From Roseimicrobium sp. ORNL1 (GTDB taxonomy: Bacteria; Verrucomicrobiota; Verrucomicrobiia; Verrucomicrobiales; Verrucomicrobiaceae), in NCBI RefSeq assembly GCF_011044495.1, contig NZ_CP049143.1, positions 6,200,001-6,264,000 of the forward strand: DNA of 64,000 nt. The letters run 5' to 3'. Numbering within the stretch: the stretch's first letter is position 1; each line of letters opens with the position of its first letter. Below are positions 1,672-27,238 of the stretch, one piece after another. The notes beneath the pieces were generated by a model. It was not told the origin of the DNA, searched no databases, and saw nothing but the letters and a program-made list of their open reading frames with translations. Both the position numbers and the translations under genes were made by a program.

Positions 1672-2049
1672 ATGCCAAGCTACATTGATGGATTCGTCAT
1701 TCCCGTGCCCGCCGACAAGATCGATGAGTACATGAAAATTGCCAAGAAGGCCTCCAAGGTCTGGAAGGACCATGGCGCGCTCGAATACTGGGAGTGCGTG
1801 GGCGATGACCTGCAGATCGAGGGCATGCCCCCCAGCGCCAGCTTCCCAAAGATCACCAAGGCCAAGCCCAATGAAACCGTGGTCTTCTCCTGGATCCGCT
1901 ACAAGTCACGCAAGCACCGTGACCAGGTGACCGCAAAAGTCATGAAGGACCCTCGCCTGGAGCCCTACATGCAACCCGGCGCAATGCCCTTCGACATGAA
2001 GCGCATGTCCTACGGCGGCTTCAAGTCCGTCGTGAGTGTGCAGGAATAA
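1672..2049 (+). CDS. DUF1428 family protein
   Basis: The product is 125 residues. It starts MPSYIDGFVIPVP and contains the DUF1428 hallmarks: a central WKDHGALEYWECVGDD segment, a VFSWIRYKSR strand and the C-terminal MPFDMKRMSYGGF. The family adopts a dimeric ferredoxin-like (ABM-type) fold and its function is unknown; older databases mislabel it as a 4.5S RNA protein. The frame stays open well upstream, but the ATG at 1672 is preceded by a good AAAGAGGAG ribosome binding site and starts the conserved domain. Together with the neighbouring DUF899 and DUF1579 genes it forms a run of small, same-strand genes that often co-occur in proteobacterial and verrucomicrobial genomes. Confidence 0.85.
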   Translation: MPSYIDGFVIPVPADKIDEYMKIAKKASKVWKDHGALEYWECVGDDLQIEGMPPSASFPKITKAKPNETVVFSWIRYKSRKHRDQVTAKVMKDPRLEPYMQPGAMPFDMKRMSYGGFKSVVSVQE

Positions 2050-2108
2050 CCCATTCCGCATTCGCTTCCTTCCTTCCTTCAAATACCACCATCTCACCAT
2101 CCACCATC

Positions 2109-2678: not shown

Positions 2679-2709
2679 GCTGACTTCCGACAAAACCCTC
2701 ATCCCAACA

Positions 2710-2740
2710 CGGAGATGGATTCGCATCCATCTCCGTTTTC
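2710..2740 (+). terminator. Intrinsic terminator
   Basis: CGGAGATGGAT (2710-2720) pairs perfectly with ATCCATCTCCG (2725-2735) across a 4-base loop and is followed by TTTTC. It ends the DUF1579 transcript and could also limit read-through into the convergent DUF1501 gene. Confidence 0.85.
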
Positions 2741-2763
2741 TATTGATGCTGCGATGAGAGGCC

Positions 2764-4212
2764 TCACGCCAGAATATCCCTCACCACATGCCCATGCACA
2801 TCTGTCAGGCGAAAATCACGTCCCGCATGATGAAAGGTGAGGCGCTCGTGATCGAAGCCGAGGCAATGCAGGATGGTGGCCTGGAGGTCGTGCACATGCA
2901 CCGGGTTCTCCACGATGTGGAAGCCCATTTCATCCGTCGCGCCGTGAGTCAGGCCAGGCTTGATGCCGCCACCAGCCATCCACATGGTATACGCCTGGGG
3001 ATGGTGGTCGCGGCCGAGACTGCGGCCCAGCGCAGGATTGGTCTCCACCATGGGTGTGCGTCCGAATTCACCACCCCAGATTACGAGCGTGTCATCCAGC
3101 AGACCGCGCTGCTTCAGGTCGCGCACCAGGGCGGCGCTAGCCTGGTCTGTGGCAGCGCAATTCTTCTTCGTGTTTCCGGTGACGTCTGAGTGAGCATCCC
3201 ACCCCTCGTGATAGATGTTGATGAAGCGCACACCGCGCTCGATCATGCGACGGGACAGCAAGCAGGCGCGCGCGAAAGATGGCTTATCCGGATCACAGCC
3301 GTACATTTCCAGCGTGGCCTTGCTCTCGCTCTTCAGATCCATGAGTTCCGGCGCGCTGGTTTGCAGGCGGAAGGCCATCTCGTAGTTCGCCAGGCGCGTG
3401 TTGATTTCCGGATCGCCCACGGTCTCCATCTGCTTGCGGTTCATCTTCCCGATGAGGTCCAGCGTATCCCGCTGCAGCCGTGCATCCATGCCGTTGGGAC
3501 TGGAGACATTCAGGATGGGATCGCCCTGCGAGCGGAAGCGCACTCCGGTATACACCGTCGGCAGGAAACCACTCGACCACAGGGCGGAGCCCCCGCTCAG
3601 GCCACTGCCCGTGCTCATCACCACAAAGGCAGGCAGGTCCTGTGTTTCCGAACCCAAGCCATACAGCGCCCATGAGCCCAGCGACGGACGACCCGGCTGC
3701 GAGAAGCCCGTATTGAAAAAAAGCTGAGCGGGCGCGTGGTTGAATTGATCCGTCTTGCACGAGCGGACGATGCAGATGTCATCCACAATCTTCGCGAGGT
3801 GTGGCATGGCCTCCGACAATTCCGCGCCGCTCTGGCCGTGCTTCGCAAACCGGAACTGTGGACCGAGCACGGCAGCATCCGGCCGGATGAAGGCGTAGCG
3901 TTGGTTGCCAATCACCGAGGGTGGCAGTGGATTGCCTTCGAGCTTGGCCAACGCGGGCTTGTAGTCGAAGAGGTCAAGCTGCGACGGCGCGCCCGCCATG
4001 AACAGGTGAATCACGTGTTTCGCCTTCCCGGGGAAATGCGGCTTCAACGGATGCAGCGGATCCGTGGACGCCGGTGCAGGGGCCGCACTGACACGAGAGG
4101 TGAGCGTATCCGTCAACAGACCGGCAAGAGCAACCTTTCCCAAACCAACTCCACACTCCTGAAGGAAGTGGCGGCGGGAAACTTGCAGCGGATGAAGGGT
4201 GCGATTCAGCAT
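2764..4212 (-). CDS. DUF1501 domain protein with Tat-like signal
   Basis: The 482-residue protein belongs to the DUF1501 family, which is structurally related to the alkaline phosphatase/sulfatase fold and is abundant in Planctomycetes and Verrucomicrobia. The N-terminus carries SRRHFLQECGVG, a twin-arginine-type export signal. Family segments visible include AKHVIHLFMAGAPSQLDLFDYKP, RGVRFINIYHEGWDAHSD, LVIWGGEFGRTPMVE and GRDHHPQAYTMWMAGGGIKPG, the last resembling metal-site residues of the phosphatase superfamily. The gene lies only 3 bases downstream of the PSD1 cytochrome gene, so the two are almost certainly co-transcribed. This pair is a recurring PVC arrangement whose substrate is undetermined (polysaccharide processing has been proposed). 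Confidence 0.9.
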   Translation of the reverse strand: MLNRTLHPLQVSRRHFLQECGVGLGKVALAGLLTDTLTSRVSAAPAPASTDPLHPLKPHFPGKAKHVIHLFMAGAPSQLDLFDYKPALAKLEGNPLPPSVIGNQRYAFIRPDAAVLGPQFRFAKHGQSGAELSEAMPHLAKIVDDICIVRSCKTDQFNHAPAQLFFNTGFSQPGRPSLGSWALYGLGSETQDLPAFVVMSTGSGLSGGSALWSSGFLPTVYTGVRFRSQGDPILNVSSPNGMDARLQRDTLDLIGKMNRKQMETVGDPEINTRLANYEMAFRLQTSAPELMDLKSESKATLEMYGCDPDKPSFARACLLSRRMIERGVRFINIYHEGWDAHSDVTGNTKKNCAATDQASAALVRDLKQRGLLDDTLVIWGGEFGRTPMVETNPALGRSLGRDHHPQAYTMWMAGGGIKPGLTHGATDEMGFHIVENPVHVHDLQATILHCLGFDHERLTFHHAGRDFRLTDVHGHVVRDILA

Positions 4213-4215
4213 GAC

Positions 4216-7200
4216 TCAGCCTTTCGTGACAAACTCGTCAAGGTTGAAGAGGGCGCGGGCCAGCAGGGTCCACGCGGCGCGATCGATGTCCTTCGCGTCC
4301 TTGTTTCCGTTGATGACAGCAGCATCCACCTCACCAGACCGGATGCGCTGCCTTTGAGATTCCATGTAGGCGATCAACGCTGACGTTTCATCAGTCGTCG
4401 CCTCGCGGCACAGCACGCGGCGGAACATGAACTGCAGTCGCGCTTCATCCGTGCCGGACTGTTGTGTGGTGAGTAACCCAAGCGCCTGCGTCGCCTCCAC
4501 CATGAAGACATCATTCAGCAGGGTGAGCGCCTGCAGTGGGGTGTTGGAAACATCACGGCGTGCCACGCACGCCTCACCACTTGGCGCATCGAAGGTGGTG
4601 GACATGGCGAAGGGAGCGGTGCGTTTCAAGAATGTATATAGCGAGCGGCGATGGCGATCATCTCCGCTGCTGGCCTCCCACGTCCCCTTACCATAGGCGA
4701 TGTCCACCACGCCATCCGGCTGCGGGGGATACACGCCGGGGCCGCCCATTTTCAGCGAAAGCAGGCCGCTCGCGTACAGCACGCTGTCCCGGACGATCTC
4801 CGCCTCCACGCGCGGACGCGGGGCACGGGCCAACCACTTGTTCTCCGCATCCTTTGCCAGCAGTTCAGGCGTGACCTGCGATGACTGCTGATAAGTCGCG
4901 CTGGTGACAATGAGACGATGCAGCTTCTTCAGCGACCAGTTCTGCTTCATGAACTCCACCGCGAGCCAATCCAACAACTCGGGATGGGTCGGCACTTCTC
5001 CCTGGAAGCCGAAGTCTTGTGAAGTCTTCACCAGGCCTCGCCCAAAGAGAATTTCCCACTGACGGTTCACGGTGACGCGCGCCGTCATCGGATTCTCGGG
5101 AGACACGATCCACTTCGCAAAGGCGAGCCGGTTGCGTGGTGCGTCCTTCGGCAGCGGATTCAGCACCGAAAGCACCTCCGCTTTCACCAACTCTTGCGGC
5201 TGGGTGTATTCGCCGCGGTTGTAGAGATGGGTGGGACGTGGATTGGAAGCCGGGCGCTCACGCATCACCAGACTCGCCGGAGCGGCAGGTGGTTTACGCG
5301 CAGCACGAATGGCATCCGCCTCATTCGCCACCTCGGGGGCATTCATCAGGAACTGCATGCGAAGCTGATTGCGCTGTGCGGGTTTGAGCTCGGCATCAGA
5401 GAGGGTCAGCAGCGGCTCCAACTTGTCAGGAATGCCACGAGCCTCGGCGCCATTGTCATGGGCGGTGACGGAGATGCGGAAGCGACCGAGTGGACAGGCG
5501 TAATGCCTGCCGAAGAGCATCTTCACGGAGATCTCCTCCGTGCCTTCGAGTGGCTTCTCCAAAACGAATACCGCTTCATGCGCTTCACCCGGACGCTTGG
5601 CGCAGCTCCATCCAGTCTGCGGATCACCATCCACCGCAGCCATGGCAGACACAGCGGGAGTATTGGGACCGCCGAAGTTGTTCCGTGCATAGGTCTCACT
5701 CGCACGCGTGATCTTCACCGGCTTGCCATTCACGGTGACCTGAAACTCACCCATGAAGAAGTCGCCCTTGGGTCCCTCATAATATGCGAGGCCGGGGCCA
5801 CGATCCGGCAGGCTGGGGTGGGGCAGTGCTTCAAGTCGAATGGCCGTGATGCCGGTGGTCACAGGGCGGAATTTCAGCTCATACGTGTCGCTCTTGGTGA
5901 TGTCGCCGGAGCCCAGCACCGAGCCATCGGGAAGCTGGGTGAGATGCGGCATGTTGCTCTTCATTTCGGTGGGGCGAAGCACCTGCCACTCCACCTTGTT
6001 GCCACGCATATTCTGCAGCCATGTGTTGAATGCGGCTTCCGCCAATTCGCGACGTGCTCCGGGTGTGTCCTTGTCCTTCGCCGGCCACTTCGCCGGCAGG
6101 TCGGCCACCTGTCGCGCAAGGCGTTTCTGACGTTGGTCCTTTGCTTCCGGAGTCTCTTGCGCCGGGAGATCCAGATCCGGCTCATCCGCGTTATTCAAGA
6201 AGGCCATGATCTGGAAATACTCGCGGTGCGTGACGGGATCGAACTTGTGCGTGTGGCACTGCGCGCAGCCCAACGTGAGGCCCAGCCACGTGGTGCCGGT
6301 GGTGGCCACGCGATCTGCCATGGCGTGATAACGGAACTCCAGAGGGTCAATGCCGCCCTCTTCGTTCAGCATCGTGTTGCGATGGAACCCGGTGGCAATC
6401 CGCTGCTCCACGGTCGCTCCCGGCAGCATGTCTCCAGCGATTTGATCGATGGTGAATTCATCAAACGGCATGTCCGCATTCAGTGCCTTCACGACCCAGT
6501 CGCGGTAGGGCCAGATGCTTCGCGGCCTATCCTTTTCGTAGCCATTCGTGTCTGCATACCGCGCGAGGTCCAGCCAGCGACGCGCCCAACGCTCCCCGTA
6601 TTGTGGCGAAGCCAGCAACGCATCCACAGTGGCCCGAATGGCAGCATCGCGATCCCGTGCAACCGCCTCGACGAAGGCATCCACCTCTTCGGGCTTCGGC
6701 GGCAGACCAACGAGATCCAGATAGAGCCTGCGCACCAGCGTCACCGCATCCGCAGGCGAAGAGGGAGCGAGGCCCTGTTCCTTGAGTTTGGCGCGAATGA
6801 AGGCATCGATGGGATTGGCAAGTGCGGCGCCCTGCTCGGGATTCGGCGGTGTCGTCTGCTGCGGTTTGACGAAGGCCCAATGCTGCTTGTATTCCGCACC
6901 CCCTGCGACCCAGCGTTTCAGGATGTCCTTCTGCTCTGCCGTGATCGACATCTTCGAATCCGGCGGCGGCATGATTTCATCCGGGTCATTCGTCTCGATG
7001 CGCGCCACCAGAGCGCTCTTGTCCGGCTGGTGCGGCACGATCGCGATGTCCCCCGTCTTCGCGGGCTTCAGGACTTCCTCTCGCAGATCCAGGCGCAGTC
7101 CGCCTTTGCGTGTCTTTTCATCCGGCCCGTGGCACTTGAAGCAGTACCGGGAAAGAATGGGCCGTACCTCGTTGGTGAAGTCAGGCGAAGACGAAGGACC

Positions 7201-7275
7201 TGCCGCAGGCAGCGACTGCACTCCGGAGAGTGCGCCGAGCATGACAAGAATGAGTGTGGATGAGCGAAGTGGCAT
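4216..7275 (-). CDS. PSD1 / Planctomycete cytochrome C domain protein (DUF1549-DUF1553)
   Basis: The start is placed at the ATG at 7275, giving 1019 residues and a clear signal peptide (MPLRSSTLILVMLGALSG). The protein then has a c-type heme motif CFKCHGPDE in the planctomycete cytochrome C (PSC) region. It continues with a DUF1549-like part (YGERWARRWLDLARYADTNG, FDEFTIDQIAGDMLPG, LGLTLGCAQCHTHKFDP), a central discoidin-like beta region, and DUF1553 at the C-terminus (NRLAFAKWIVSPENPMTARV, LDWLAVEFMKQNW, GACEARRDVSNTPLQALTLLND-like ending). CAQCH is a second CxxCH. The protein is expected in the periplasm, with a presumed redox role. It heads a two-gene operon with the DUF1501 gene. Confidence 0.9.
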   Translation of the reverse strand: MPLRSSTLILVMLGALSGVQSLPAAGPSSSPDFTNEVRPILSRYCFKCHGPDEKTRKGGLRLDLREEVLKPAKTGDIAIVPHQPDKSALVARIETNDPDEIMPPPDSKMSITAEQKDILKRWVAGGAEYKQHWAFVKPQQTTPPNPEQGAALANPIDAFIRAKLKEQGLAPSSPADAVTLVRRLYLDLVGLPPKPEEVDAFVEAVARDRDAAIRATVDALLASPQYGERWARRWLDLARYADTNGYEKDRPRSIWPYRDWVVKALNADMPFDEFTIDQIAGDMLPGATVEQRIATGFHRNTMLNEEGGIDPLEFRYHAMADRVATTGTTWLGLTLGCAQCHTHKFDPVTHREYFQIMAFLNNADEPDLDLPAQETPEAKDQRQKRLARQVADLPAKWPAKDKDTPGARRELAEAAFNTWLQNMRGNKVEWQVLRPTEMKSNMPHLTQLPDGSVLGSGDITKSDTYELKFRPVTTGITAIRLEALPHPSLPDRGPGLAYYEGPKGDFFMGEFQVTVNGKPVKITRASETYARNNFGGPNTPAVSAMAAVDGDPQTGWSCAKRPGEAHEAVFVLEKPLEGTEEISVKMLFGRHYACPLGRFRISVTAHDNGAEARGIPDKLEPLLTLSDAELKPAQRNQLRMQFLMNAPEVANEADAIRAARKPPAAPASLVMRERPASNPRPTHLYNRGEYTQPQELVKAEVLSVLNPLPKDAPRNRLAFAKWIVSPENPMTARVTVNRQWEILFGRGLVKTSQDFGFQGEVPTHPELLDWLAVEFMKQNWSLKKLHRLIVTSATYQQSSQVTPELLAKDAENKWLARAPRPRVEAEIVRDSVLYASGLLSLKMGGPGVYPPQPDGVVDIAYGKGTWEASSGDDRHRRSLYTFLKRTAPFAMSTTFDAPSGEACVARRDVSNTPLQALTLLNDVFMVEATQALGLLTTQQSGTDEARLQFMFRRVLCREATTDETSALIAYMESQRQRIRSGEVDAAVINGNKDAKDIDRAAWTLLARALFNLDEFVTKG

Positions 7276-7402
7276 CGAGCAGGAGAAACCGACCCCAACA
7301 GGGGCAGATTCTGATCCTATCAAAACGGCCCGGGTAGCAACAGTCTTGTGTCCCGGGAGCCAGAAGATCCATCAGCAGGGCCAGATACGCCCTCAATGCC
7401 CT

Positions 7403-11479: not shown

Positions 11480-14400
11480 TCACGGCAGGTCTACGGGAAG
11501 CAGTACATCCGCTCCATTGATGCGGACCGTGCCGGAAGGGTTGCCTATGCTATCCAAGGTCATGGTCGCGGCAGGTGTGGGAGGAATGAAGTTGTTCACC
11601 GATCCATTAAAGGTCGTGACCCCTGCCGCTTCCTCGATGGTAAGCTGCGGAAGTCCATCCAACCCGGTTGCCGCGGCAGTGTTTCCATCAAAGGTCATAT
11701 GCATCAGGGCGGTGTCCAGACCCTGGAGATGCAACGCTTGAAGGCGGATATTGGAGATGGTGTTTCCAGTGACGGCCACGTTGGTGGAACTGGTGTTATT
11801 CCCCTGCGCATAAATGCCCCGTCCTGTGATACCGGAGAGCGTGTTTCCACCGATGGTGGTCGTCAGGGTGTTGTTGTCGTGGTTGATGAGGGAGATGCCG
11901 TCACCCGGAGACTGCAGCACCTGGTTGTTCAGCACGTTTGCCGTCAGCAAAGCAGGGCCCAAGAGAAGTTCCCTCGCCTCGAGATGGATGCCCGACCCCG
12001 TCGCACCCGCGATGATGTTATTTTCCACCGTAGCTTCCATCTCCACCGTGTCAGCCACTTCGAGACGCACTCCATCCTGCACCTGCGCGATCACGTTTCC
12101 TGTGACCGTGGCCTCAAAGGGCATGTTGCCAGTTCCCGCCACATAGATGCCATTGCCAGAAGCTCCGGTATTTGAAATGCGGTTGTCCACGATGGTGGCA
12201 TGCACATTGAAGCCATTCTCCCCGAAAACGTGAATCCCATGAGCACCCGGGCCGGTGATCGAATTGCGCCGGATGGACATGCCCAGGATGGTGATATTGT
12301 TGAACTCCACCCTGATCGCTGTGTCCGCAGCGTTTCGGAACGTGTTGTCATGAATGTTCATCGACAGATTGCCGCTCCCATCATTCGTGGCATTGATCTG
12401 GTGCTGCCCGGATCCGTTGAAGATACTGTCATACACATTGACATGGACCTCGTTGCCTCCCGTGAGTTCCACCCGCACGCCATTGAGCCCCGGTTGATTG
12501 AAGGTGTTGCGCTCAAAGTTGGCGAACAGTTCATACTGATCTTCCAGAAAGACGTGGATACCGTGCAGGACCGGAGCGCGGAAGGTATTGTCATCCGCCC
12601 ATATCTCTGAATAGCCGTCACCCTGCCCGTGAATTCTCATGGCATTAAACCCTGCCCCTTCCACGAGGTTTTGATGCACAAAGGCATCCATCCTGGTGTC
12701 GCCCATCTGCAAGTTGATGCCATGTTCAGCCACACCCGTAATGCGATTGCCGATGGCGGTGCAGCGCATGGTGGAATCGTCAAAGGCAAGGGCGCCGATG
12801 CCATTCTCCCCTCCGGTGATGATATTGTTCACCACGGTGGCCTCCATGCTCGCAGTATCGTTGCTGGTCACGAGCGCCGCGTGGAATTCCGCACCGCTGA
12901 AACGGTTGTTGGCTATCAAAGCAGTACTTTCACCGGTCCCATTCGCGGCCACCCACACACTGGCATTGGAGGTGTTCGTGAACCGGTTGCTGCGGATCTC
13001 CACTTCCGAAACATTGATGGCACGAATCCCGGAGCCCACACTCTGGTCCACGTGGTAGCCTGCCATGCCAAAGAAGGGAATGTCCTCCGCCCAGAACGCA
13101 CCCTGCACGCGTGGGGCGGGGCCACTGCCAAACCTCTTTCCTGATGGAGCGGTAATGGCCTGACCGCTGCCGATGAAGTTCACGCTGCCCACATTCGTGG
13201 TCACGTCCTCCGTGTAGCCGCCGGCTGTTCCCTGGGTGTACACATTCCACACGCGACCTGAGCCGTTGCTGTTTCCTTGAGCGATGTTCGCACCGGCCTG
13301 CACGGTGCTCATGGGCGCCTCCGCCGTGCCGTTTCCGGTGGCGTCATTGCCCGCCTGGATGCCGTTACCCACGGGTGCTCCGTTGTTCACAAAAATGATG
13401 TCATCTTCCAGCACAATCCGTTGGGAACTCTGCGCCACGACCTTGGTCACACGCTTTACTTTCGTCTCGGATTTCGTCTTGGTCTCCGCGCTATGAGAGA
13501 GCCGGATGGCCGCATTCTGCCGATGCACCGGCTCTGCCATGCGCTCCACTAGATGGCGGCGACGGGGTTTGAAAGCATCCTTCCACGTGCGATCGAGCGG
13601 GATCTGTAACTCGATTCCGGCACTCCAGTCGCTGCCGGTGAAGGCCTCATTCTCGTGCCACAAACCAGTCAGCACCACCGCAGGCACGGGACGCACTTCA
13701 AGACCGGCGCGCCATCCGCGAATAGGACCAGTGCCACGCTCCTGCGGGCCGAAGGGTTGATTCTCCATGCTGGCGTAGCCGCCGATGATCTTCACGTCCA
13801 TATATTCGTCCAACCCAGGAACGAGAAAGCCCGCCTCGATGTCCCAACCTTCCATGCCTCGTTCATAAAACTGAGTGGTACGTGTAAGCGTGGTCGTGCG
13901 GATCGTAGTGGTGGCCGTTGTGGTGTAGGTAGCGTCCTGCGCGATCAGGTTTCCCGTGGCGAAAGGATCACCAGCGCTGCTCAGATGCGTATTCCTCCTC
14001 GTGCTGCTGGATGAAAATGTCTGGCGATCAATCTGACTGCCGGCCCCCTTGCGTCCACTTTCCAGTGGCAGGTAGTAGTTGCCTCGCAGTTCCAGATAGC
14101 GCGAGTCAACCTCGGCGCCGAACCCGAGTTGCCAGAATTCATTGCGATGCTCGGTCCTGAGCATATCGATGAACAGACTGCCGCCGAGGTACCAGCCCTC
14201 CTCCAGGAATGCTGCCCGACCTCGCTCCGTGAGCGCTGAGATGGGCTGGTCATTGAAGAGATGGCGGAAGCCGATGCCCATCGACGAGGCAGACTCACCA
14301 CCTTCACCCACGCTGGTGTACGGCTCGATGAACAGGTAGCTGCCTCCAAGGGTGCCATCTGTGCCGATGGTGCTCCACAGGGGCACATTCAGAAAAATGT

Positions 14401-14569
14401 GTCCGTCCGTGTAGACGTCATTGGATTTCACGCCGGTGCCGAGGAGGGGCAGCGTCCACGGTTCGTGGATCGGCTGTGGGGTGATTGCGGGATTCTTTTC
14501 CACTGGACCTGCAAGTGCGGGAAGGACAAGGCTGCAGGCGGCCATGATAACGGCGTGGGTGAATTTCAT
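11480..14569 (-). CDS. Outer-membrane surface protein: invasin-like barrel plus right-handed beta-helix
   Basis: The start is placed at the ATG at 14569, where MKFTHAVIMAACSLVLPALA forms a signal peptide; the product is 1029 residues. Residues about 40-370 read like the inverse-autotransporter (intimin/invasin) beta-barrel: SYLFIEPYTSVGEGGESASSM, GFRHLFND, GWYLGGSLFIDML, QLGFGAEVDSRYLELRGNYY, GWDIEAGFLVPGL, GWRAGLEVRPV. Residues about 430-1000 are parallel beta-helix repeats of about 22-35 residues with Asn-rich turns (IANNRFSGAEFHAALV, VVNNIITGGENGIGAL, IHDNTFRNAADTAIRV). The passenger therefore lies C-terminal to the barrel, as in inverse autotransporters. It is probably an adhesin or polysaccharide-interacting surface protein; the ligand is unknown. 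Confidence 0.75.
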   Translation of the reverse strand: MKFTHAVIMAACSLVLPALAGPVEKNPAITPQPIHEPWTLPLLGTGVKSNDVYTDGHIFLNVPLWSTIGTDGTLGGSYLFIEPYTSVGEGGESASSMGIGFRHLFNDQPISALTERGRAAFLEEGWYLGGSLFIDMLRTEHRNEFWQLGFGAEVDSRYLELRGNYYLPLESGRKGAGSQIDRQTFSSSSTRRNTHLSSAGDPFATGNLIAQDATYTTTATTTIRTTTLTRTTQFYERGMEGWDIEAGFLVPGLDEYMDVKIIGGYASMENQPFGPQERGTGPIRGWRAGLEVRPVPAVVLTGLWHENEAFTGSDWSAGIELQIPLDRTWKDAFKPRRRHLVERMAEPVHRQNAAIRLSHSAETKTKSETKVKRVTKVVAQSSQRIVLEDDIIFVNNGAPVGNGIQAGNDATGNGTAEAPMSTVQAGANIAQGNSNGSGRVWNVYTQGTAGGYTEDVTTNVGSVNFIGSGQAITAPSGKRFGSGPAPRVQGAFWAEDIPFFGMAGYHVDQSVGSGIRAINVSEVEIRSNRFTNTSNASVWVAANGTGESTALIANNRFSGAEFHAALVTSNDTASMEATVVNNIITGGENGIGALAFDDSTMRCTAIGNRITGVAEHGINLQMGDTRMDAFVHQNLVEGAGFNAMRIHGQGDGYSEIWADDNTFRAPVLHGIHVFLEDQYELFANFERNTFNQPGLNGVRVELTGGNEVHVNVYDSIFNGSGQHQINATNDGSGNLSMNIHDNTFRNAADTAIRVEFNNITILGMSIRRNSITGPGAHGIHVFGENGFNVHATIVDNRISNTGASGNGIYVAGTGNMPFEATVTGNVIAQVQDGVRLEVADTVEMEATVENNIIAGATGSGIHLEARELLLGPALLTANVLNNQVLQSPGDGISLINHDNNTLTTTIGGNTLSGITGRGIYAQGNNTSSTNVAVTGNTISNIRLQALHLQGLDTALMHMTFDGNTAAATGLDGLPQLTIEEAAGVTTFNGSVNNFIPPTPAATMTLDSIGNPSGTVRINGADVLLPVDLP

Positions 14570-14633
14570 GATGGGTAGGGCTAGGTGCCGGTTCAGTTCC
14601 GGCGACCCTCCCACGCGCCCTTGTTTTTCACCA

Positions 14634-14684
14634 TACGCCCACCGGCGTACGAGCCCGTATTCCCGTACGACTTTTGACGTACGA
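14634..14684. promoter_or_regulatory. Cluster of CGTACGA sites between divergent genes
   Basis: CGTACGA occurs at 14646-14652, 14664-14670 and 14678-14684, and TACGCC/GGCGTA form a dyad at 14634-14649. The cluster sits in the 175-base divergent region upstream of the surface-protein gene and the PPK2 gene. It is likely a transcription-factor binding region. A NarL-type regulator such as the one encoded downstream is one candidate, which is inference. Confidence 0.4.
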
Positions 14685-14744
14685 CCATCCATCACGGGCT
14701 CAATCCCCAGTTGCCAGCAGCGGCATCGAAGCGAGAATGCGCGC

Positions 14745-15644
14745 ATGCCGAAAATTGATCTTGCCCAGTTCCGTTTTCCCCAAAGCTCCCCCATCAGGCT
14801 GCGGAAACTGCCCACGAAAATCAAAGCATTGTTCACCGACGATGCTGACTACCGGGCCAAGCTGAGTTCCGTGCGGGACGACATCAATGAAATGCAGGCG
14901 CAGATGTATGCGCATGACCGGCACTCGATGCTGGTGGTGTTCCAGGCCATGGATGCCGCGGGGAAGGACAGCACCGTGGAGCATGTGTTTTCCGGTGTGA
15001 ATCCACAGGGGGTGGAAGTGCACTCCTTCAAGGCGCCGACGATCGATGAACTCGACCACGACTTCCTCTGGCGCTCCACCACGAGGCTGCCTCCACGCGG
15101 CAAGATCGGCGTCTTCAATCGCAGCTACTACGAGGAGGTGCTCATCTGCAAGGTGCACCCGGAGATCATCCAGAAGTATCAGCGTCTGCCCGAGGCGAAG
15201 ACGAAGGACATGAAGAAGCTCTACCAGCACCGCTACGAGAGCATCACCGACTTCGAAAAGCACCTCGCGCGCAATGGCACGCATGTGGTGAAATTCTTCC
15301 TGCACATCTCCCACAAGGAACAAGCCGAGCGTTTCCTGGCCCGCATCGATGACCCTTCCAAGAACTGGAAGTTCAACGAAGGTGACCTCGCCGAACGTGA
15401 GCATTGGGAAGAGTACATGGATGCGTATGAGGAGTGCATCCGGAAGACCGGCACCCCGGACTCGCCCTGGTATGTGATCCCTGGTGACAGCAAAAAGAAC
15501 ATGCGCCTCATCGTGGCCAGCGTCCTGCGCCATGAAATGCGCAAGCTGCATCTGGAGTGGCCCCAGTTCCCCGAGGACGAGAAGGCCGCCATGGCGCGCA
15601 GCAAGAAGAAGCTGGCAGCCGAGCTCGGAAAGCTGGGTAAATAG
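14745..15644 (+). CDS. ppk2: Polyphosphate kinase 2 family protein
   Basis: The ATG at 14745 gives 299 residues and begins just before the conserved core; the longer open frame upstream overlaps the divergent surface-protein gene and is not supported. The protein has the PPK2 Walker A motif AMDAAGKDST (Lys about residue 74), HSFKAPT, a lid region HDFLWRSTTRLPPRGKIGVF, the Walker B-like FNRSYYEEVL, and the C-terminal SPWYVIPGDSKKNMRLI. PPK2 enzymes transfer phosphate between polyphosphate and nucleotides (ADP/GDP or NMPs depending on subclass). This single-domain form fits class I or III, but the subclass cannot be fixed by eye. It acts in the cytoplasm. Confidence 0.92.
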   Translation: MPKIDLAQFRFPQSSPIRLRKLPTKIKALFTDDADYRAKLSSVRDDINEMQAQMYAHDRHSMLVVFQAMDAAGKDSTVEHVFSGVNPQGVEVHSFKAPTIDELDHDFLWRSTTRLPPRGKIGVFNRSYYEEVLICKVHPEIIQKYQRLPEAKTKDMKKLYQHRYESITDFEKHLARNGTHVVKFFLHISHKEQAERFLARIDDPSKNWKFNEGDLAEREHWEEYMDAYEECIRKTGTPDSPWYVIPGDSKKNMRLIVASVLRHEMRKLHLEWPQFPEDEKAAMARSKKKLAAELGKLGK

Positions 15645-15879
15645 CTTTCTCCATCCCCAGATCAACGAAGGGCGACTTCCTCTTGCGAATTTGCCCCTCG
15701 GAGAAAGCACTCGCGTTCGTTCACCGCGATCACGAAAGTGTGCCCGGCACTGCCTCGGCTGTGCCGTGCGATTCTATTCCTACTCCTTGACCGCGCAGGG
15801 TCCTGCACAATCGTTCACGAGCCACCCACCCACCCACCCGGCCAGACCAGACCACGCTTCTCAGCCATCCTCATTTTCC

Positions 15880-17169
15880 ATGGGCTCCCAGATTCGCCGC
15901 ATCATCCTTGTCATCGCCATCTTCCTTCTCGTCGGGTGGATCTACAGTTTCTGGCGCCAGGGCCGTTCGGGATATGATCTCTTCGATGCGCTGAAGGGTA
16001 CCCCACCTTCCGCCGACCAGACCGCTCCCACTCCCCCCCCCGCTCCTACCTCGCTGCCCGAGCCCAAGCCCGCCCTACCCAAGGGTGAACTTCCCGGTCT
16101 GGAAATGCTCGATGCCGAGTACGCTAAGCTGGCGGCGGCTGTGCTCCCCTCCGTGGTGAGCATCAATACGGAGTCCGTGGTCACGACGCGCCCGCGGACC
16201 ATCCTGGAAGCGATGCGGGGAGGCGCCGTCGTTCGTCAGCGCGGGCTGGGGTCCGGCGCCATCATCACCGCGGAAGGACATGTGGTAACGAACTACCATG
16301 TGGTCGCCGGAGCCCGGCAAATTGAAGTCACCACCAATGACCACACCACCTACCCGGCAGAGGTTGTGGGTTTGGATCCCGCCATGGATCTCGCCATCAT
16401 CCGGATTCAGAGCAATCGGACGAATTTCCCACGTCTCTCCTTTGCGGACTCTGACAAGGTGCGAGTGGGTCAGATTGTGTTTGCCGTGGGGAATCCTCTC
16501 GGCTTCAGCGGCACCGTTTCCCAGGGCATCATCAGTGCCACCCAACGCTGGACACAGGACAGTGCCATGGAGTTCCTGCAGACGGATGCGAACATCATTC
16601 CCGGCAACTCCGGCGGCCCGCTGGTGAACCTTCGCGGGGAGATTATTGGGGTGAATGAATCCATCTACACCGGTGGAGGTCAGGCGCAGCAACATGCGTG
16701 GCAGGGCATCGGCCTCGCAATCCCTGCAAATGACGCCAAGGAATCGGTGGACGCCATGCTGCAGAAGCGCACGCGGATCGATTGCTTCCTGGGCCTGGTG
16801 GTGGATCCCACTGTGGTCACCGTGAAGTCCCAGGAGGGCAGCTCCCTGGGAGTCCAAATCACCAATGTGGGCGCAGGGTCACCAGCACAAGGAGCCGGGC
16901 TGCGCCCGGGCGACGTGGTCACGAAGTACGGCGATCGCCGGGTGGAGTCTGCCAATCAACTGCTGAGCTTCATCCGCCGCTCAAAACCAGGCCAGCCGGT
17001 GGAAGTCACGGTGGTGCGTGCCGGGAAAATCGTGAGAATCTCCGTAGTGCCGCAGCCGCGTCCCCAGCAGCAGCCGCAGGTGTCCCCGGAATCCCCGGTG
17101 CTCCAGCCGCAGCCGCAGGTGTCCCCGGTACCGCAGATTCCTCAAATGCCGCAGTATCAGGGAAGGTAA
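15880..17169 (+). CDS. HtrA/DegP-like serine protease with PDZ domain
   Basis: The ATG at 15880 gives a 429-residue protein with an N-terminal membrane anchor (residues about 7-24) and a Pro-rich linker. A trypsin-like domain follows with H140 (VTNYHVVAG), D170 (DPAMDLAIIRI) and S244 (GNSGGPLV), and then one PDZ domain (LGVQITNVGAGSPAQGAGLRPGDVV). The extreme C-terminus is a Pro/Gln-rich tail made by a 19-bp DNA repeat at 17071-17089 and 17110-17128. The protein should face the periplasm and degrade or refold misfolded proteins. The open frame continues upstream into the PPK2 gene, but only the start at 15880 gives the anchor. Confidence 0.9.
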   Translation: MGSQIRRIILVIAIFLLVGWIYSFWRQGRSGYDLFDALKGTPPSADQTAPTPPPAPTSLPEPKPALPKGELPGLEMLDAEYAKLAAAVLPSVVSINTESVVTTRPRTILEAMRGGAVVRQRGLGSGAIITAEGHVVTNYHVVAGARQIEVTTNDHTTYPAEVVGLDPAMDLAIIRIQSNRTNFPRLSFADSDKVRVGQIVFAVGNPLGFSGTVSQGIISATQRWTQDSAMEFLQTDANIIPGNSGGPLVNLRGEIIGVNESIYTGGGQAQQHAWQGIGLAIPANDAKESVDAMLQKRTRIDCFLGLVVDPTVVTVKSQEGSSLGVQITNVGAGSPAQGAGLRPGDVVTKYGDRRVESANQLLSFIRRSKPGQPVEVTVVRAGKIVRISVVPQPRPQQQPQVSPESPVLQPQPQVSPVPQIPQMPQYQGR

Positions 17170-21979: not shown

Positions 21980-22030
21980 GCGAGATGTGGTTCGCGTTCC
22001 GCGCGACCATCACGAACCAGTTATCATCCC

Positions 22031-22068
22031 GCAGCCCGGCCTTTCAAAAAGGTCGGGCTGCTTTTTTT
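22031..22068 (+). terminator. Intrinsic terminator
   Basis: GCAGCCCGGCCT (22031-22042) pairs with AGGTCGGGCTGC (22050-22061) with one G-U pair, followed by seven T residues. It ends the heme-binding-protein transcript. Confidence 0.9.
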
Positions 22069-22097
22069 GGCACATGCGGAAGTAGACCGAACAAGAA

Positions 22098-22298
22098 TTA
22101 AGGGACCACATTTCCTCCCGCCAGCTTGCGGGCCAGTGCCTGGCTCTCGGGCGCGAGCCGCGCCATCGGCACCGCGAATGATTTGCCCTCACGCACCAGC
22201 GTTACTTGATCGCGCCCGTAGGGTCCGTAAAAAAATTTAAAATCCATGAGGGGTTCCGCACCGGGAAAGCGCATGCCTGGATGAATTCCTATCTTCAT
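22098..22298 (-). CDS. Short SHD1-like ORF, probably a gene remnant
   Basis: This 66-codon minus-strand frame encodes DFKFFYGPYGRDQVTLVREG followed by KSFAVPMARLAPESQALARK. This pattern resembles the SHD1 (SLA1 homology domain 1) repeats common in Planctomycetes and Verrucomicrobia, where a strand pair ends in PL..L...Q/A. It lacks a signal peptide and any partner domain, and its N-terminal part is encoded by a 14-bp inverted repeat. It may be a remnant of a longer gene or a minimal single-domain protein. The family match is by eye only. Confidence 0.35.
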   Translation of the reverse strand: MKIGIHPGMRFPGAEPLMDFKFFYGPYGRDQVTLVREGKSFAVPMARLAPESQALARKLAGGNVVP

Positions 22299-22307
22299 CC
22301 AGGCATG
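22272..22307. repeat. 14-bp perfect inverted repeat at edge of RiPP-like island
   Basis: CATGCCTGGATGAA (22272-22285) is the exact reverse complement of 22294-22307, with an 8-base loop. Two more base pairs extend it (C22270-G22309 and a G-U). It lies in the 5' part of the SHD1-like frame and about 100 bases before the first small ORF of the AT-richer island. No T-run flanks it. Confidence 0.6.
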
Positions 22308-22413
22308 TGCCGTCGAAGGTGTCCGAGTTCCTCCGATCTACGACTTCTGTTCCGTGTGCGAATTTTGAAAACAACTTCAATACCGTGGCCCCTTGCAGGG
22401 CCTGAATGAAACC

Positions 22414-22740
22414 ATGATTCACAACCTGAACACCGCCTGGCTGTACGCCTATTCGCCGAACGCTAATACGCCGAGTACCGCGTATCATACCGTTTACACA
22501 GGTAGCGCCCCTAACGGAAGGGCTATCTTTGCAACCGTTTCGTTGTCCCATCTCACGACACTTAATGCGATGGGGGCAGGCGCCTGGATCAGGAGTGTTA
22601 CCCCTCCTTTTGGCCCTCCTGCCGAATTCCACGACTTCGCCCACAATTCACACTACAGCGGCCAGGTGATCGCGGTTACTTTCGCCCTTTCTGCGCGGGG
22701 TGCAGAGGCTTTCGCTCAGGCCAGCGTGTTCTACTTCTAA
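22414..22740 (+). CDS. Small hypothetical protein, first ORF of RiPP-like island
   Basis: The product from the ATG at 22414 is 108 residues; a TTG at 22393 is a possible earlier start. I do not recognise a family. The sequence is rich in Thr, Ser, Ala, His and aromatic residues (LNTAWLYAYSPNANTPSTAY, FHDFAHNSHYSGQVIAVTFA), lacks Cys and has no signal peptide. Base composition is clearly less GC-rich than the neighbouring core genes. It is followed after 12 bases by another small ORF, so the two are likely co-transcribed. It could be an accessory protein of the ATP-grasp locus or an unrelated acquired gene. Confidence 0.5.
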   Translation: MIHNLNTAWLYAYSPNANTPSTAYHTVYTGSAPNGRAIFATVSLSHLTTLNAMGAGAWIRSVTPPFGPPAEFHDFAHNSHYSGQVIAVTFALSARGAEAFAQASVFYF

Positions 22741-22752
22741 CCATCAAGAGTC

Positions 22753-23103
22753 ATGGCGAAACATCCAAAAACGCGACCATCGTCTCCCTCTGCCGACAAA
22801 CTGCTAGCACCAGAAGTCGCTGTCATCCTCTATAATAAGCAAACGGGAGTGATTTGCCATGTTCATTTCTTCAGCGCCACAAACGGCATAAAGCCGCCTG
22901 ATAAGAAGGAGCTTGAGGACATGGCGTCTGCCCATGCCGTGAAGGATGGTCACGACATTCAGATGCATGGTGCCATGCATATCGCCCCCGCGGCCCTTAA
23001 GCGTGGCGTTGGTTATCGCATCTCCGTAAAAAAACGTGCACCCTCCCTTGTCGAGATTAAGCCCGGCAAACTCAAACCACATAACATCCTGGGTGACGCA
23101 TGA
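22753..23103 (+). CDS. Small hypothetical protein, second ORF of RiPP-like island
   Basis: This 116-residue product starts MAKHPKTRPSSPSADK. It contains a compact alpha/beta-looking segment, VAVILYNKQTGVICHVHFFS followed by a charged helix KPPDKKELEDMASAHAVKDG, and ends in a basic tail (VEIKPGKLKPHNILGDA). I do not recognise a family. The gene is 12 bases after the first small ORF and 97 bases before the putative precursor gene, on the same strand as the ATP-grasp gene. A role in leader binding or immunity is possible but unsupported. Confidence 0.5.
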   Translation: MAKHPKTRPSSPSADKLLAPEVAVILYNKQTGVICHVHFFSATNGIKPPDKKELEDMASAHAVKDGHDIQMHGAMHIAPAALKRGVGYRISVKKRAPSLVEIKPGKLKPHNILGDA

Positions 23104-23200
23104 GCAGATCCCTTTCCAGGGCGTGCATTTCAACCACACGAGCCTGCCATAAAGCCGAAACCACGAACGATAAACATTCCAAACTGAAAGGAGTGCCAAT

Positions 23201-23464
23201 ATGGGAAAAGAAAAACCACGAACGGCATTAGGTGCCGAGTTTGATGAAGCACGCAGGGAAAAGAGTGGACGTCCGATCGTCCTGGTAGCACAGGACGTCC
23301 CATATATTAAGTTGGAGTCCCCAGAAGAATTGAAGCAGTGGCAGGACGACTTGTACGCCCAGTATGGGATTTCATTGGATGAATCGCAACTGCCAGGGAT
23401 ACGGGCGGAATGCGGCTGCTGCGTCAATGGCCGTTATACAAGCGACCAATGCGACGCTGCTTGA
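23201..23464 (+). CDS. Putative RiPP precursor peptide
   Basis: The 87-residue product has an excellent ribosome binding site (AGGAG at 23189-23193, 7 bases from the ATG). A charged leader-like region comes first (residues 1-65; EFDEARREKSGRPIVLVAQD, SPEELKQWQDDLYAQYG). The short C-terminal region after PGIRAE contains CGCCVNGRYTSDQCDAA, which holds four Cys (71, 73, 74, 84), Thr80, Ser81, Asp82 and Asp85. Acidic residues together with Ser/Thr (or Cys) near the C-terminus are what an MvdC/D-type ATP-grasp ligase would cross-link. Its position directly upstream of such a ligase gene is the main support. The core boundaries are inferred. Confidence 0.6.
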   Translation: MGKEKPRTALGAEFDEARREKSGRPIVLVAQDVPYIKLESPEELKQWQDDLYAQYGISLDESQLPGIRAECGCCVNGRYTSDQCDAA

Positions 23465-23473
23465 GCAACGCCG

Positions 23474-23509
23474 GTGTCGATCCGGTCGTTCGCCCGGCCG
23501 GATCGACAC
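23474..23509 (+). promoter_or_regulatory. Stable hairpin between precursor and ATP-grasp genes
   Basis: GTGTCGATCCGG (23474-23485) pairs exactly with CCGGATCGACAC (23498-23509), and the stem continues inward by a G-U and two G-C pairs, leaving a loop of about 6 bases. No T-run follows. It lies in the 61-base gap and ends 7 bases before the AGGAGA of the ligase gene. It fits a partial terminator or mRNA-stabilising element that sets a high precursor-to-enzyme ratio. Confidence 0.7.
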
Positions 23510-23525
23510 GAGCGCCAGGAGAGAC

Positions 23526-24476
23526 ATGGCAATGATCGCGATCGTCACAGTCCGCAATGATGTGCATGCCGTCGCAATCTGCGGACAGGTCCGTCGTCTT
23601 GGATACCCCGACTGCCACATCATCGAATGTGACCAACTCGCCCAAGGACGAAATATTCACTATGCCGTCGGAGTGGATGCTGGCAGGGACTGGGTCCTGA
23701 CGTCCGATGGGAGTCCAATTGCGATTTCGCAGACCCGTGTGATTTGGCTGCGACGCCCCAGGGCCAATCAAAACCTCAACACGCCCCTCACGGAGGAAGA
23801 TGGCTACCATCTTGTTAACAATGACTGTCGCGGCGCGCTTTCGGGCTATCTTGCAACTCACTTCCGGGGGAAATGGATTTCCCATCCGGAAGCAACTTTT
23901 CGGGCATCTGACAAGCTCTACCAGCAGGAGGTCGCCCGGGCTTGTGGATTCCGAGTCCCGAAGACGATAGTCACCCAATCAGCAGACGAAGTGGGAAAGT
24001 TCTTCTTGGAGTGTGATGGCAAGGTAATTGTCAAAACGGTCGTCGGTGCCGATCTCACTCTTGAAACCAAAAAGATAGCCGACCCCTCGTTCTTTTCGGA
24101 CGAGGCATACAGCGCGTCGCCAGCGATCTACCAGGAGTGTATCGAGGGCACCAAGCACTTGCGGTTGCTCAACTTCGGCGACAGGTCCATGTGCGGTCTC
24201 ATCGAGACCGACAACCTTGACTGGCGGATGCATCTCGATGAATCGATCACGCCGTGGAAGGTGCCCGACGACTTGAATCGCCGGGTGCGCATGGTCATTG
24301 AGCGGCTGGGATTGGAGATGGGCATTGTTGACATCAAGTTGACTCCAGGCGGTGAGCCTGTGTGGTTGGAGGTCAATCCGCAGGGGCAGTTCATATTTCT
24401 GGAACCGTTAACCGGGTTGCCATTCGTCGAAATGTTTTCGAGGTATCTCATCGAGGAAGCCACGTCGCTTGCCTAG
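23526..24476 (+). CDS. MvdC/MvdD-like ATP-grasp peptide ligase
   Basis: The 316-residue product resembles ATP-grasp ligases of microviridin-type (graspetide) pathways. Visible features are an N-terminal pre-ATP-grasp fold (IAIVTVRNDVHA), VIWLRRPRANQN near residue 72 (the family's 'WYRRP'-like motif), HPEATFRASDKLYQQEVARACG, the ATP-grasp core VIVKTVVGADL, YQECIEGTKHLRL, and the C-terminal GIVDIKL and WLEVNPQGQFIFLEPLTGLP with the metal-binding Glu282/Asn284. Such enzymes phosphorylate side-chain carboxylates of a precursor and form ester or amide macrocycles. AGGAGA at 23517-23522 precedes ATGs at 23526 and 23532; the latter has the better spacing. No transporter or acetyltransferase is adjacent. 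Confidence 0.8.
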   Translation: MAMIAIVTVRNDVHAVAICGQVRRLGYPDCHIIECDQLAQGRNIHYAVGVDAGRDWVLTSDGSPIAISQTRVIWLRRPRANQNLNTPLTEEDGYHLVNNDCRGALSGYLATHFRGKWISHPEATFRASDKLYQQEVARACGFRVPKTIVTQSADEVGKFFLECDGKVIVKTVVGADLTLETKKIADPSFFSDEAYSASPAIYQECIEGTKHLRLLNFGDRSMCGLIETDNLDWRMHLDESITPWKVPDDLNRRVRMVIERLGLEMGIVDIKLTPGGEPVWLEVNPQGQFIFLEPLTGLPFVEMFSRYLIEEATSLA

Positions 24477-24670
24477 GGTTGAGTCAGGTTGGTGTCCTGC
24501 AACCGCGTCCTCTTTTGCCGGGGCTTGGTTTGCCTCCAGCATACCGCAATGAATGGAACGGTTGCTAGACACCCACATTCGAACTATATTCGTGATAGAT
24601 CGGACCCGCGATTCCGCTACCAAGAAGGCATTGCAAGCAGACTGGCCATGCCCATGATGCGGCACCATTT

Positions 24671-27238
24671 ATGAAGCCCCCGGGGAGAAATCCCATTTTC
24701 AGTATTCGCAGCACGACCACCCTCCTGCTCCTGCTCGCATGCCTTGCTCTCCCGGCATGGGGCCAGAGCGATGAAGACGAGATTCCCGCGCCCAAAGCCG
24801 AGGTGGCTCTGGTGCACCAGAGCGCCACGGTGCGCCTGTACGAACCGGACGAACGCCCTCCGCGCGCCGTGTTCGTCTTTGGCTCCGGCGATGGCGGATG
24901 GTCTGCCTGGGAGGACGCGGCCAGCCATTGGCTGCGGGACGTGGGCGTCTACGTGATCGGGTTCGACCTGCGCAGCTACGCGGAGAAGGACTTCGACCAA
25001 CAAAAGCTGGGGCGCGACATGGCGACGCTGGCGAATGAAGGGGTGACTCGCAGCGGGGGCGATGCCAACACGCCCATCATCTACGGCGGCTGGAGCATGG
25101 GCGCGGTACAGGCCGTGCCTGCGGGCGCTTTTGCAGGACGGCCGCCGAGCTTGAAAGGGCTCGTTCTCATGAGCGCGGACAGCCGCGGCCGGTATGGCTT
25201 GCGTGCAACGGATGAGCTGGGCATCACCCCCACCGGCCAGGGCACCTTCAGCCTTTCTGATTTCAGCAAGGGCGTTGCCGGCTTGCGGGTCGCGCAGTTC
25301 CACGGGGGAGCGGACTTCATGGCCTCGACGGCCTGGGTCCAGGGGCTCACCTCGCCGCATCAGCTCTACATCATGCGGGGCGCGAACCATGGGTTCGATG
25401 GACCGGCAGACAGCTTCGCACCGCTCCTGCAGCGGGGGGTGGATTGGGTGCTGGGCGATGACACGGCGGTGGCGCTGCCACCTGAGCCGGGCCTGCCCTT
25501 TGGGCTCTCGCCCCTTTGGCCAGCAGCGGCACTGGCGATTGGTCTTGCGATCTTTTTCATCGTTTCGCGCCAGCACTCCATCCGCGTGCTGGTACTCGCC
25601 GTGGCCGTGATGGGCGCGGTGGACTTGCTGGAGGCTCTCTTCCAAAAACCTCCCGGCGTGCTGGCGTGGATGGAACAGTGGGTGCCTCTGGGCGTGACTG
25701 AGAAGAGCCGCCTGCTCCTGCTGCTCTCCGGTCTGGCGCTGCTGTCCCTCGCGCGTGGACTGCGCCGGCGGAAGCACATCGCGTGGATGCTGGCGCTCGG
25801 CATGCTGAGCATTTCCGCGGTGCTGCATCTCGCACGGGCGTTTGACTGGCATCACGCGGTTGCCGCCGCCATCTTGATCATTCCGCTGGTGCGATGGAGG
25901 AAGGAATTCATCGCGCGCTCGGATGCCCCCTCGATGCGACTGGGCTGGATCATGGCGGCCGTGCTCGCACTGGCCCTGTTCGTCTATGGCACCATCGGCC
26001 TGCGGCAATTGAGCGAGCGCGGCAACTTCGGCGAGGCGCTCTCGTGGTCCCAGTGCTCTCAAGGCGCCGCCGCTGCCGTGGTGATGCAGAAGTCCGAGCT
26101 GGACCGCGATGGCAGCCGTGCCGCGCGCAGCTTCCTGGCGACGCTGCGAGCAGGCAGCCTAGTGAGTGCCATCTTGGTCCTGGCGCTTCTGCTGCGTCCC
26201 GTCCTGAAGCGCCGCTACCCTGAGGCCACCGACGAAGAGCGCGCCAAGGTGAAGAACATCATCGCCACACACGGTGCGGATCCCATGAACGGCTTCGCGC
26301 TGCTTAGCGACAAGCGGTACTTCTTCAGTGACGATGGAGATGGCGTGGTGGCCTATGCCTTGTGGAGGAAGTTCGCCGTGGTGCTGGCAGATCCCATCTG
26401 TGAATCTTCCAAGCGAGCCGAAATGGTGCGTACCTTTGCGGAATTCTGCGCGCGGCAGGACTGGGAGCCCCTCTTCTACTGCTCGCACATGAGCCAGCGC
26501 ACGCTCTATGAGGAGCTGGGTTTCGTGACGTTCAAGGTGGGTGAGGATGCTCGGCTGGATACCGCCGAGTTCAAGCTTCAGGGCGGCAAGTTCCAGAACC
26601 TCCGCACGGCGCGCAACAAGGCGCAGAAGGCGGGCCTGACCTTCCAGTGGTATGATGCGAAGCCGCATCCGGATCACGGCCTGGAAGCGCAGGTACAACT
26701 CATCTCCCAGCACTGGCTCGATCTCAAACATGGTGGAGAGATGACCTTCGACCTCGGTTCCTTCAGCCTGGAGTTCATCCGGGAACATGGCTGCGCGATC
26801 GTGCGCAATCCGGAGGGTCGCATTGAAACCTTCGCCACCTGGCTCTGCTATGATGGCGGCAGGGGGCGCAGCCTCGACCTCATGCGCGGGCGCAACGAGT
26901 TCAAGGACGTGATGGATTTCCTCATCGTGGAAGCCATCGATCACTTCAAGGCCTCCGGTGTGAAGGAAGTGAGCCTGGGCAATGCCCCCCTCGCCAACGT
27001 GCTTGCCGTCGACGGTGAAAAGCTGGAGAGTCGTGAAGAGCGCGCCGTAAGATTCCTCTTCGACAACTTCGACAAATTCTACGGCTACAAGAGCCTCTTC
27101 AACTTCAAGAAGAAGTACCTGCCCGACTGGCAGGGCCGCTACCTGGCCTACCGTCCCCGCGTGAGTCTCGCCATGGTGGGCCTGGCGATTGCAGGGGTGC
27201 ATCTGCCAAAGGGATTCGTGGGACTGGTGCGGTCGTAG
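24671..27238 (+). CDS. Fusion of AcvB/VirJ-like hydrolase and aminoacyl-phosphatidylglycerol synthase (DUF2156)
   Basis: The 855-residue protein has three parts. Residues 1-30 are a signal/anchor segment. Residues about 45-260 form an alpha/beta-hydrolase of the AcvB/VirJ type (FVFGSGDGGWSAWED, nucleophile S142 in YGGWSMGAV, D215 in GGADFM, H240 in GANHGFDG). Residues about 275-510 carry six or seven membrane segments. Residues about 515-850 match the MprF-type synthase domain DUF2156 (GFALLSDKRYFFSDDGDGVVAY, QDWEPLFYCSHM, NLRTARNKAQKAG, LDLMRGRNEFKDVMDFLIVE). In Agrobacterium, AcvB hydrolyses lysyl-phosphatidylglycerol made by LpiA. Here both activities seem joined, with the hydrolase on the periplasmic side and the synthase in the cytoplasm. 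Confidence 0.85.
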   Translation: MKPPGRNPIFSIRSTTTLLLLLACLALPAWGQSDEDEIPAPKAEVALVHQSATVRLYEPDERPPRAVFVFGSGDGGWSAWEDAASHWLRDVGVYVIGFDLRSYAEKDFDQQKLGRDMATLANEGVTRSGGDANTPIIYGGWSMGAVQAVPAGAFAGRPPSLKGLVLMSADSRGRYGLRATDELGITPTGQGTFSLSDFSKGVAGLRVAQFHGGADFMASTAWVQGLTSPHQLYIMRGANHGFDGPADSFAPLLQRGVDWVLGDDTAVALPPEPGLPFGLSPLWPAAALAIGLAIFFIVSRQHSIRVLVLAVAVMGAVDLLEALFQKPPGVLAWMEQWVPLGVTEKSRLLLLLSGLALLSLARGLRRRKHIAWMLALGMLSISAVLHLARAFDWHHAVAAAILIIPLVRWRKEFIARSDAPSMRLGWIMAAVLALALFVYGTIGLRQLSERGNFGEALSWSQCSQGAAAAVVMQKSELDRDGSRAARSFLATLRAGSLVSAILVLALLLRPVLKRRYPEATDEERAKVKNIIATHGADPMNGFALLSDKRYFFSDDGDGVVAYALWRKFAVVLADPICESSKRAEMVRTFAEFCARQDWEPLFYCSHMSQRTLYEELGFVTFKVGEDARLDTAEFKLQGGKFQNLRTARNKAQKAGLTFQWYDAKPHPDHGLEAQVQLISQHWLDLKHGGEMTFDLGSFSLEFIREHGCAIVRNPEGRIETFATWLCYDGGRGRSLDLMRGRNEFKDVMDFLIVEAIDHFKASGVKEVSLGNAPLANVLAVDGEKLESREERAVRFLFDNFDKFYGYKSLFNFKKKYLPDWQGRYLAYRPRVSLAMVGLAIAGVHLPKGFVGLVRS

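Follow-up and report, generated by a model that had tools for sequence, protein, structure and literature searches.

A probable mobile two-gene graspetide-type RiPP cassette with a cysteine-rich precursor core in Roseimicrobium sp. ORNL1

Does an ATP-grasp protein of Roseimicrobium sp. ORNL1, preceded by a short peptide with a cysteine-rich end, form with that peptide a graspetide-type RiPP system, and, if so, which residues of the peptide would the enzyme join? We addressed these questions in a window of 64,000 nucleotides (contig NZ_CP049143.1, positions 6,200,001 to 6,264,000), to which the coordinates below refer. A preliminary description of this DNA had proposed a graspetide-like locus consisting of the ligase and its precursor, with two further small proteins in the same island. 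As argued below, the locus is very probably a minimal mobile cassette of only two genes.

The ligase and its precursor

Both genes were found as they had been described, on the forward strand, the 87-aa peptide at 23201-23464 and the 316-aa ligase at 23526-24476. The strong ribosome binding site claimed for the peptide is readable in the sequence as a Shine-Dalgarno AAAGGAG at 23187-23193 (+), just 5' of the ATG. Homologues of the ligase begin at a Met two codons downstream of 23526, which suggests that its true start is 23532.

The best profile match of the ligase was TIGR04187 (2.2e-41), followed by MvdC (1.3e-35) and MvdD (1.8e-24), in line with the MvdC/MvdD-like signatures attributed to it, of which VIWLRRP and EVNPQGQ are both present. 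All three matches lie under the curated cut-offs (142 of 350 bits for TIGR04187, 123 of 425 for MvdC, and 86 of 475 for MvdD), and thus the protein falls outside these named groups. Its sequence matches in the PDB were MdnB, AMdnB, PruB, MdnC, CdnC, and PsnB. When a structure model of the ligase (pLDDT 90.7) was compared with known folds by Foldseek, ranks 1-32 were all taken by graspetide macrocyclase chains (TM 0.68-0.84), and RimK appeared first at rank 33. A RimK-type glutamyl ligase is disfavored by this ranking and by the rimK_fam profile, which reached 4e-05 vs. 2e-41 for TIGR04187, and profiles and folds together rule out a non-peptide ATP-grasp family. The residues K130, K170, R213, D232, R234, D269, E282, and N284, which we take from knowledge of the family to have catalytic-type roles, do not vary across 19 ligases of the subfamily and 15 further ones, and the Arg in D-W-R is likewise invariant. 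The 316-aa product of 23526-24476 is an ATP-grasp ligase of the graspetide type; it clusters with the graspetide macrocyclases and apart from RimK and the other ATP-grasp families.

A homologous small ORF lies directly 5' of the ligase gene in all 20 members of the subfamily, in three phyla, which rules out a chance ORF and bears out the precursor role that had been proposed for the 87-aa peptide. The homologues are ~29-38% identical to the window peptide, and the pairwise alignment with an 83-aa Streptomyces plasmid peptide gave E = 1e-12. Judging by this conserved arrangement, the 87-aa ORF is the precursor of the 316-aa ligase. Its leader would extend over residues ~1-65 and its core over residues ~66-87, GIRAECGCCVNGRYTSDQCDAA (23396-23461, +; placed by the alignment and the core table of 20 precursors), if, as we infer, the two meet at the xG step that precedes the Cys-rich stretch. 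The leader motif of the window peptide, GRPIVLVAQ..PYIKL.SPEEL..W....Y..YG, corresponds to PPPVV..QP.SY..L.TPEEL.AWE..VR.TTG conserved across the family. The motif Phhx(1,2)h, which occurs in about half of known graspetide precursors (PMC8939145), fits this leader as PIVLV in the window and as PPVVF/L in the relatives. AlphaFold2 predicted a confident leader helix at residues 41-55 and a low-confidence core. Searches of Pfam, NCBIfam and PDB sequences assigned the precursor to no family; annotation pipelines built on Pfam and NCBIfam models therefore miss it.

The spacer between the two genes (~60 nt) holds a 15-bp hairpin without a T run at 23474-23509 (+; inverted repeat I1), with a folding energy of -39.2 kcal/mol (z = -5.2 vs. 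shuffles). In the Chitinophagaceae locus L050, the same spacer holds an unrelated hairpin (-18.4 kcal/mol). The distance between precursor and ligase is 60-70 nt in these two loci, and actinobacterial pairs usually overlap or abut. Rfam gave zero matches. Perhaps the hairpin raises the output of the precursor over that of the enzyme.

Distribution and surroundings of the gene pair

The other 19 ligases of the subfamily (~45-52% identity) belong to Actinomycetota (18) and to a Chitinophagaceae MAG. Together with the window ligase they form one clade (97/97), whose sister ligases are L066 and L068, and the cassette is thus present in Actinomycetota, Bacteroidota (Chitinophagaceae), and Verrucomicrobiota (the window). 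A hand-made DNA pattern (NN[DE]CRG, 13 residues, W) run over GTDB species genomes returned 30 stretches, 15 of which were confirmed as ligases (45-52% identity), 14 from actinobacteria and one from the Chitinophagaceae MAG, and further members came from searches around the genomes with confirmed ligases. As the pattern finds only ligases that retain the NN[DE]CRG motif, the numbers given here are minimum values. Occurrence of the cassette is rare and scattered, as only 6 of 395 Streptomycetaceae genomes scored above threshold, one of them with the sister type L066. Among 68 genomes of the genus and family of the window organism, its own included, no close relative of the ligase was found, and the four weak matches in the family were 27-31% identical. 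On a plasmid of Streptomyces sp. NBC_00158, a 48%-identical ligase is preceded by the 83-aa peptide, the gene of which overlaps the ligase start; both genes are annotated as hypothetical protein.

An all-against-all comparison of the ORFs flanking the pair revealed no other gene widely shared between loci. Neighbors were common only to isolated pairs of loci, mainly the near-identical L034 and L041. Thus, the cassette consists of two genes. The statement that no transporter or protease adjoins it holds for the window, where the flanking genes encode a cytochrome-c-domain protein and a VirJ/MprF-like protein. The AT-richness claimed for the locus is likewise apparent: the G+C content of the cassette segment is 52-56% vs. 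60-64% in the flanking genes.

In G061, the one further genome of the genus covered by the search, the flanking genes are collinear with those of the window (87% and 81% DNA identity), and the gap between them is less than 0.25 kb vs. 2.7 kb in the window. The cassette DNA is therefore present here and absent in the sister species, and this ~2.6-kb segment, at approximately 22000-24670 (no strand), is most simply explained, from the comparison of flanks, as a recent insert.

The two further small proteins of the preliminary description, of 108 aa (22414-22740, +) and 116 aa (22753-23103, +), are present and match no family, but a role for them in the system found no support. Neither has a detectable relative at the other loci or in plasmids, the second is missing from 387 further genomes of the phylum, and the first has a weak codon-position signature of coding. 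An operon comprising them is therefore not supported; they are confined to the insert and probably unrelated to the cassette. The insert also contains, 5' of them, a near-perfect 17-bp inverted repeat at 22269-22310 (GCGCATGCCTGGATGAA / TTCATCCAGGCATGTGC) and, at its left end, a 66-aa ORF on the minus strand (22098-22298), possibly the remnant of a longer gene.

A phage origin of the cassette was considered and rejected. The first single-protein scan of viral contigs yielded no relative, a pattern scan of viral contigs yielded four matches, 0/4 of which were confirmed by tblastn, and PHROG gave weak matches for the precursor, which its relatives did not share. A defense system was rejected as well, as PADLOC matches were at chance level only.

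Several features were observed in passing. In the window, a prophage-like segment with genes for an integrase, a DnaC-like helicase loader and a tail tape measure protein extends from 30495 to about 40900, and lower G+C continues from it up to about 45 kb. The flanking gene at 24671-27238 encodes an 855-aa protein in which a VirJ-like hydrolase domain (PF06057, 1.3e-6) is joined to an MprF-type aminoacyl-phosphatidylglycerol synthase domain (PF09924, 3e-70), and which is conserved in G061, G067, and G009 (62-91% identity). AcvB/VirJ has been reported as an aminoacyl-PG hydrolase; possibly, hydrolase and synthase acting on one lipid are fused in the 855-aa protein. The copy on the Streptomyces plasmid of L014 has a divergent trypsin-like/CU044_2847 gene pair on one side and a lanthipeptide cluster on the other (1245-7299 and 12864-16966), surroundings that are not conserved at the other loci. 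Among the sister types, the core of L066 has one Cys, and the 155-aa precursor of L068 (968-1435 of the reverse complement) has two leader-core repeats and is thus a multi-core precursor, its cores ending in D-D-C-D and D-Y-C-D.

The cysteine-rich core and its possible links

The last 17 residues of the window peptide, CGCCVNGRYTSDQCDAA, contain four Cys, one Thr, one Ser, and two Asp, exactly as first noted. The dominance of Cys, remarked on in this one peptide, is a trait of the whole family: across 20 precursors, Cys accounts for 78 of 420 core residues (18.6%) vs. 2 of 1264 leader residues (0.16%). The cores are ~18-22 residues long and carry 2 to 6 Cys, odd counts included and just two in the L035 and L043 types, and 2-6 Ser/Thr/Lys, never fewer than two. 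In window numbering, Glu70 (23408-23410) and Asp82 (23444-23446) are invariant in 20/20 cores. Position 73 (23417-23419) is Cys in 19/20 and Ser in one (L039). Position 81 (23441-23443), next to Asp82, holds Ser, Thr or Cys in 20/20, and a D-x-C near the end places Cys at position 84 (23450-23452) in 20/20. Checked for Ser/Thr/Lys donors, the conserved nucleophile positions are thus C/S (73), S/T/C (81), and C (84).

We propose that the ligase and precursor were acquired together, and that the conserved leader (P-h-h-h..Q and the helix at ~41-55) would bind the ligase. Graspetide synthetases phosphorylate a carboxylate, which a nucleophile then attacks, with Ser, Thr, and Lys as the known native donors (Carter et al. 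2026, PMC13097080). With ATP, the window ligase would phosphorylate carboxylates on core side chains, those of Glu70 and Asp82 being the most likely, and the attack of conserved core nucleophiles would yield a macrocyclic peptide with a loss of 18 Da per link. Proteins encoded elsewhere would export the product and remove its leader, or else the product may stay intracellular.

That the peptide is instead a metal- or thiol-handling small protein, to which the ATP-grasp enzyme adds an amino acid in a RimK- or PEARL-like manner with no cyclization, we consider improbable. Cys clusters such as CSCGCSDDCC do resemble metal-binding tails, and RimK/LysX are the next fold neighbors of the ligase. However, the ligase is nearer to graspetide macrocyclases in both sequence and fold and retains the invariant D-W-R Arg, and the C-terminal residues of the peptides vary (AA, LA, MM, EQ, PE, MD), unlike the internal Glu70 and Asp82.

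If the peptide is cyclized, as we propose, the identity of the donors becomes the central issue. There is about an even chance that the product is an ordinary ester/amide graspetide, in which Ser/Thr, and sometimes Lys, donate to Glu70 and Asp82, while the cysteines serve for disulfides, metal binding or redox. The native donors described so far (PMC13097080) agree with this, as do the Ser/Thr/Lys residues present in every core and the Ser/Thr found just before Asp82 in 19/20. Yet no Ser/Thr position is invariant: the residue right after Glu70, Ser/Thr in most relatives, is Cys in the window, and L014 has Cys at the position of Ser81. Moreover, Cys counts that include odd numbers give little reason to expect disulfide pairs. 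If the two acids are the acceptors and the donors are conserved, the one conserved position that is mainly Ser/Thr adjoins Asp82. For the synthetase ThfB, very small rings, of 2 and of 5 residues, have been reported as too strained (PMC13003496).

The sizes of the conceivable rings are two residues for Ser81-Asp82, three for Asp82-Cys84, 10 for Cys73-Asp82, 12 for Glu70-Ser81, and 15 for Glu70-Cys84. With the rings of Ser81 or Cys84 with Asp82 probably too small, Cys73 would be the natural partner of Asp82, provided that Asp82 links to a conserved donor. A Cys73-Asp82 link would in turn leave Glu70 for Ser81 or Cys84, an argument from conservation, as non-conserved Ser, Thr or Lys could also serve. 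We offer this connectivity speculatively, as an example; the remaining cysteines would be free, oxidized or metal-bound.

Since Cys prevails at the conserved nucleophile positions, we judge at least one Cys thioester likelier here than in any described graspetide. In absolute terms, a native thioester graspetide, with at least one core Cys as donor and a macrothiolactone such as Cys73-Asp82 nested with Glu70-Cys84 or Glu70-Ser81, remains a tentative reading, below the ester/amide one in probability. Ser, Thr, and Cys interchange at the donor positions, and succinyl-CoA synthetase, an ATP-grasp enzyme that makes thioesters via an acyl phosphate, provides a precedent. Against these points stand the Ser at position 73 of L039 and the two or more Ser/Thr/Lys kept by every core. 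Cys84 as a donor to an acceptor earlier in the sequence would also be unusual; to our knowledge, the donors of described graspetides precede their acceptors. Graspetide synthetases accept Cys as a donor, described, together with the thioesters formed, as non-native (PMC12291112, PMC13097080). A native side-chain Glu-Cys thioester is found in another RiPP, that of Streptococcus pneumoniae, but there the thiolactone is made by GrcB, a ThiF-like enzyme and not an ATP-grasp ligase (PMC12150305).

Relation to known graspetides and implications

Among characterized systems, the microviridin type (MdnA/MdnB/MdnC, AMdnB) shares with the cassette the ligase fold (TM 0.81-0.83 for MdnC), the invariant catalytic-type residues, a precursor beside the ligase, and the Phhx-h leader motif. 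It differs in that the cassette has a single ligase, a Cys-dominated core, a precursor and core unrelated in sequence, and no conserved transporter, protease or acetyltransferase. The TgmA/TgmB type of Streptomyces (TIGR04187, GRASP_SAV_5884) supplies the best profile of the window ligase, PruB of S. coelicolor (9bou) is among its best sequence and fold matches, and the P-h-h-h..QP of the family leader resembles PFALGFAQP of TgmA. Nevertheless, the score is below the curated cut-off of this type, TgmC methyltransferase is absent, and the precursor matches no family model. Plesiocin (PsnA/PsnB) and CdnC are alike in fold (TM 0.74-0.79) and in acyl-phosphate chemistry in complex with the precursor, but their cores have no Cys, and that of plesiocin is of the TTxxxxEE type.

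Loci of only a synthetase and a precursor, as here, are found in some of the 43 graspetide groups of Carter et al. 2026 (PMC13097080), among them groups 27, 28, and 35. The subfamily may already be, unnamed, inside one of these 43 groups, the comparison being one of gene content. Conserved Cys in many predicted precursors was noted by Makarova et al. 2022, where thioether formation by radical SAM enzymes was suggested; at the present loci, in contrast, only the ligase is conserved beside the precursor.

The graspetide kind is thus already known, and the present variant is marked by a conserved core dominated by Cys, a precursor family that no model covers, and the lack of any accessory gene. 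In the papers cited here, graspetide links are described as esters or amides, and thioesters are called non-native (PMC12291112, PMC13097080). It is conceivable, though doubtful, that the cassette makes graspetides with native Cys-Asp/Glu thioesters among their side-chain links. If so, they would include the first native macrothiolactone known from an ATP-grasp RiPP ligase, produced by a thioester-forming two-gene mobile unit spread across Actinomycetota, Bacteroidota, and the phylum of the window organism. With nearly one-fifth of the core being Cys, and with Cys, Ser, and Thr exchanging at conserved positions, native thioester formation is directly testable with two short genes. Such macrocycles, reactive and easily opened or rearranged, could account for activity through signaling or covalent attachment, and peptide engineering could profit from them.
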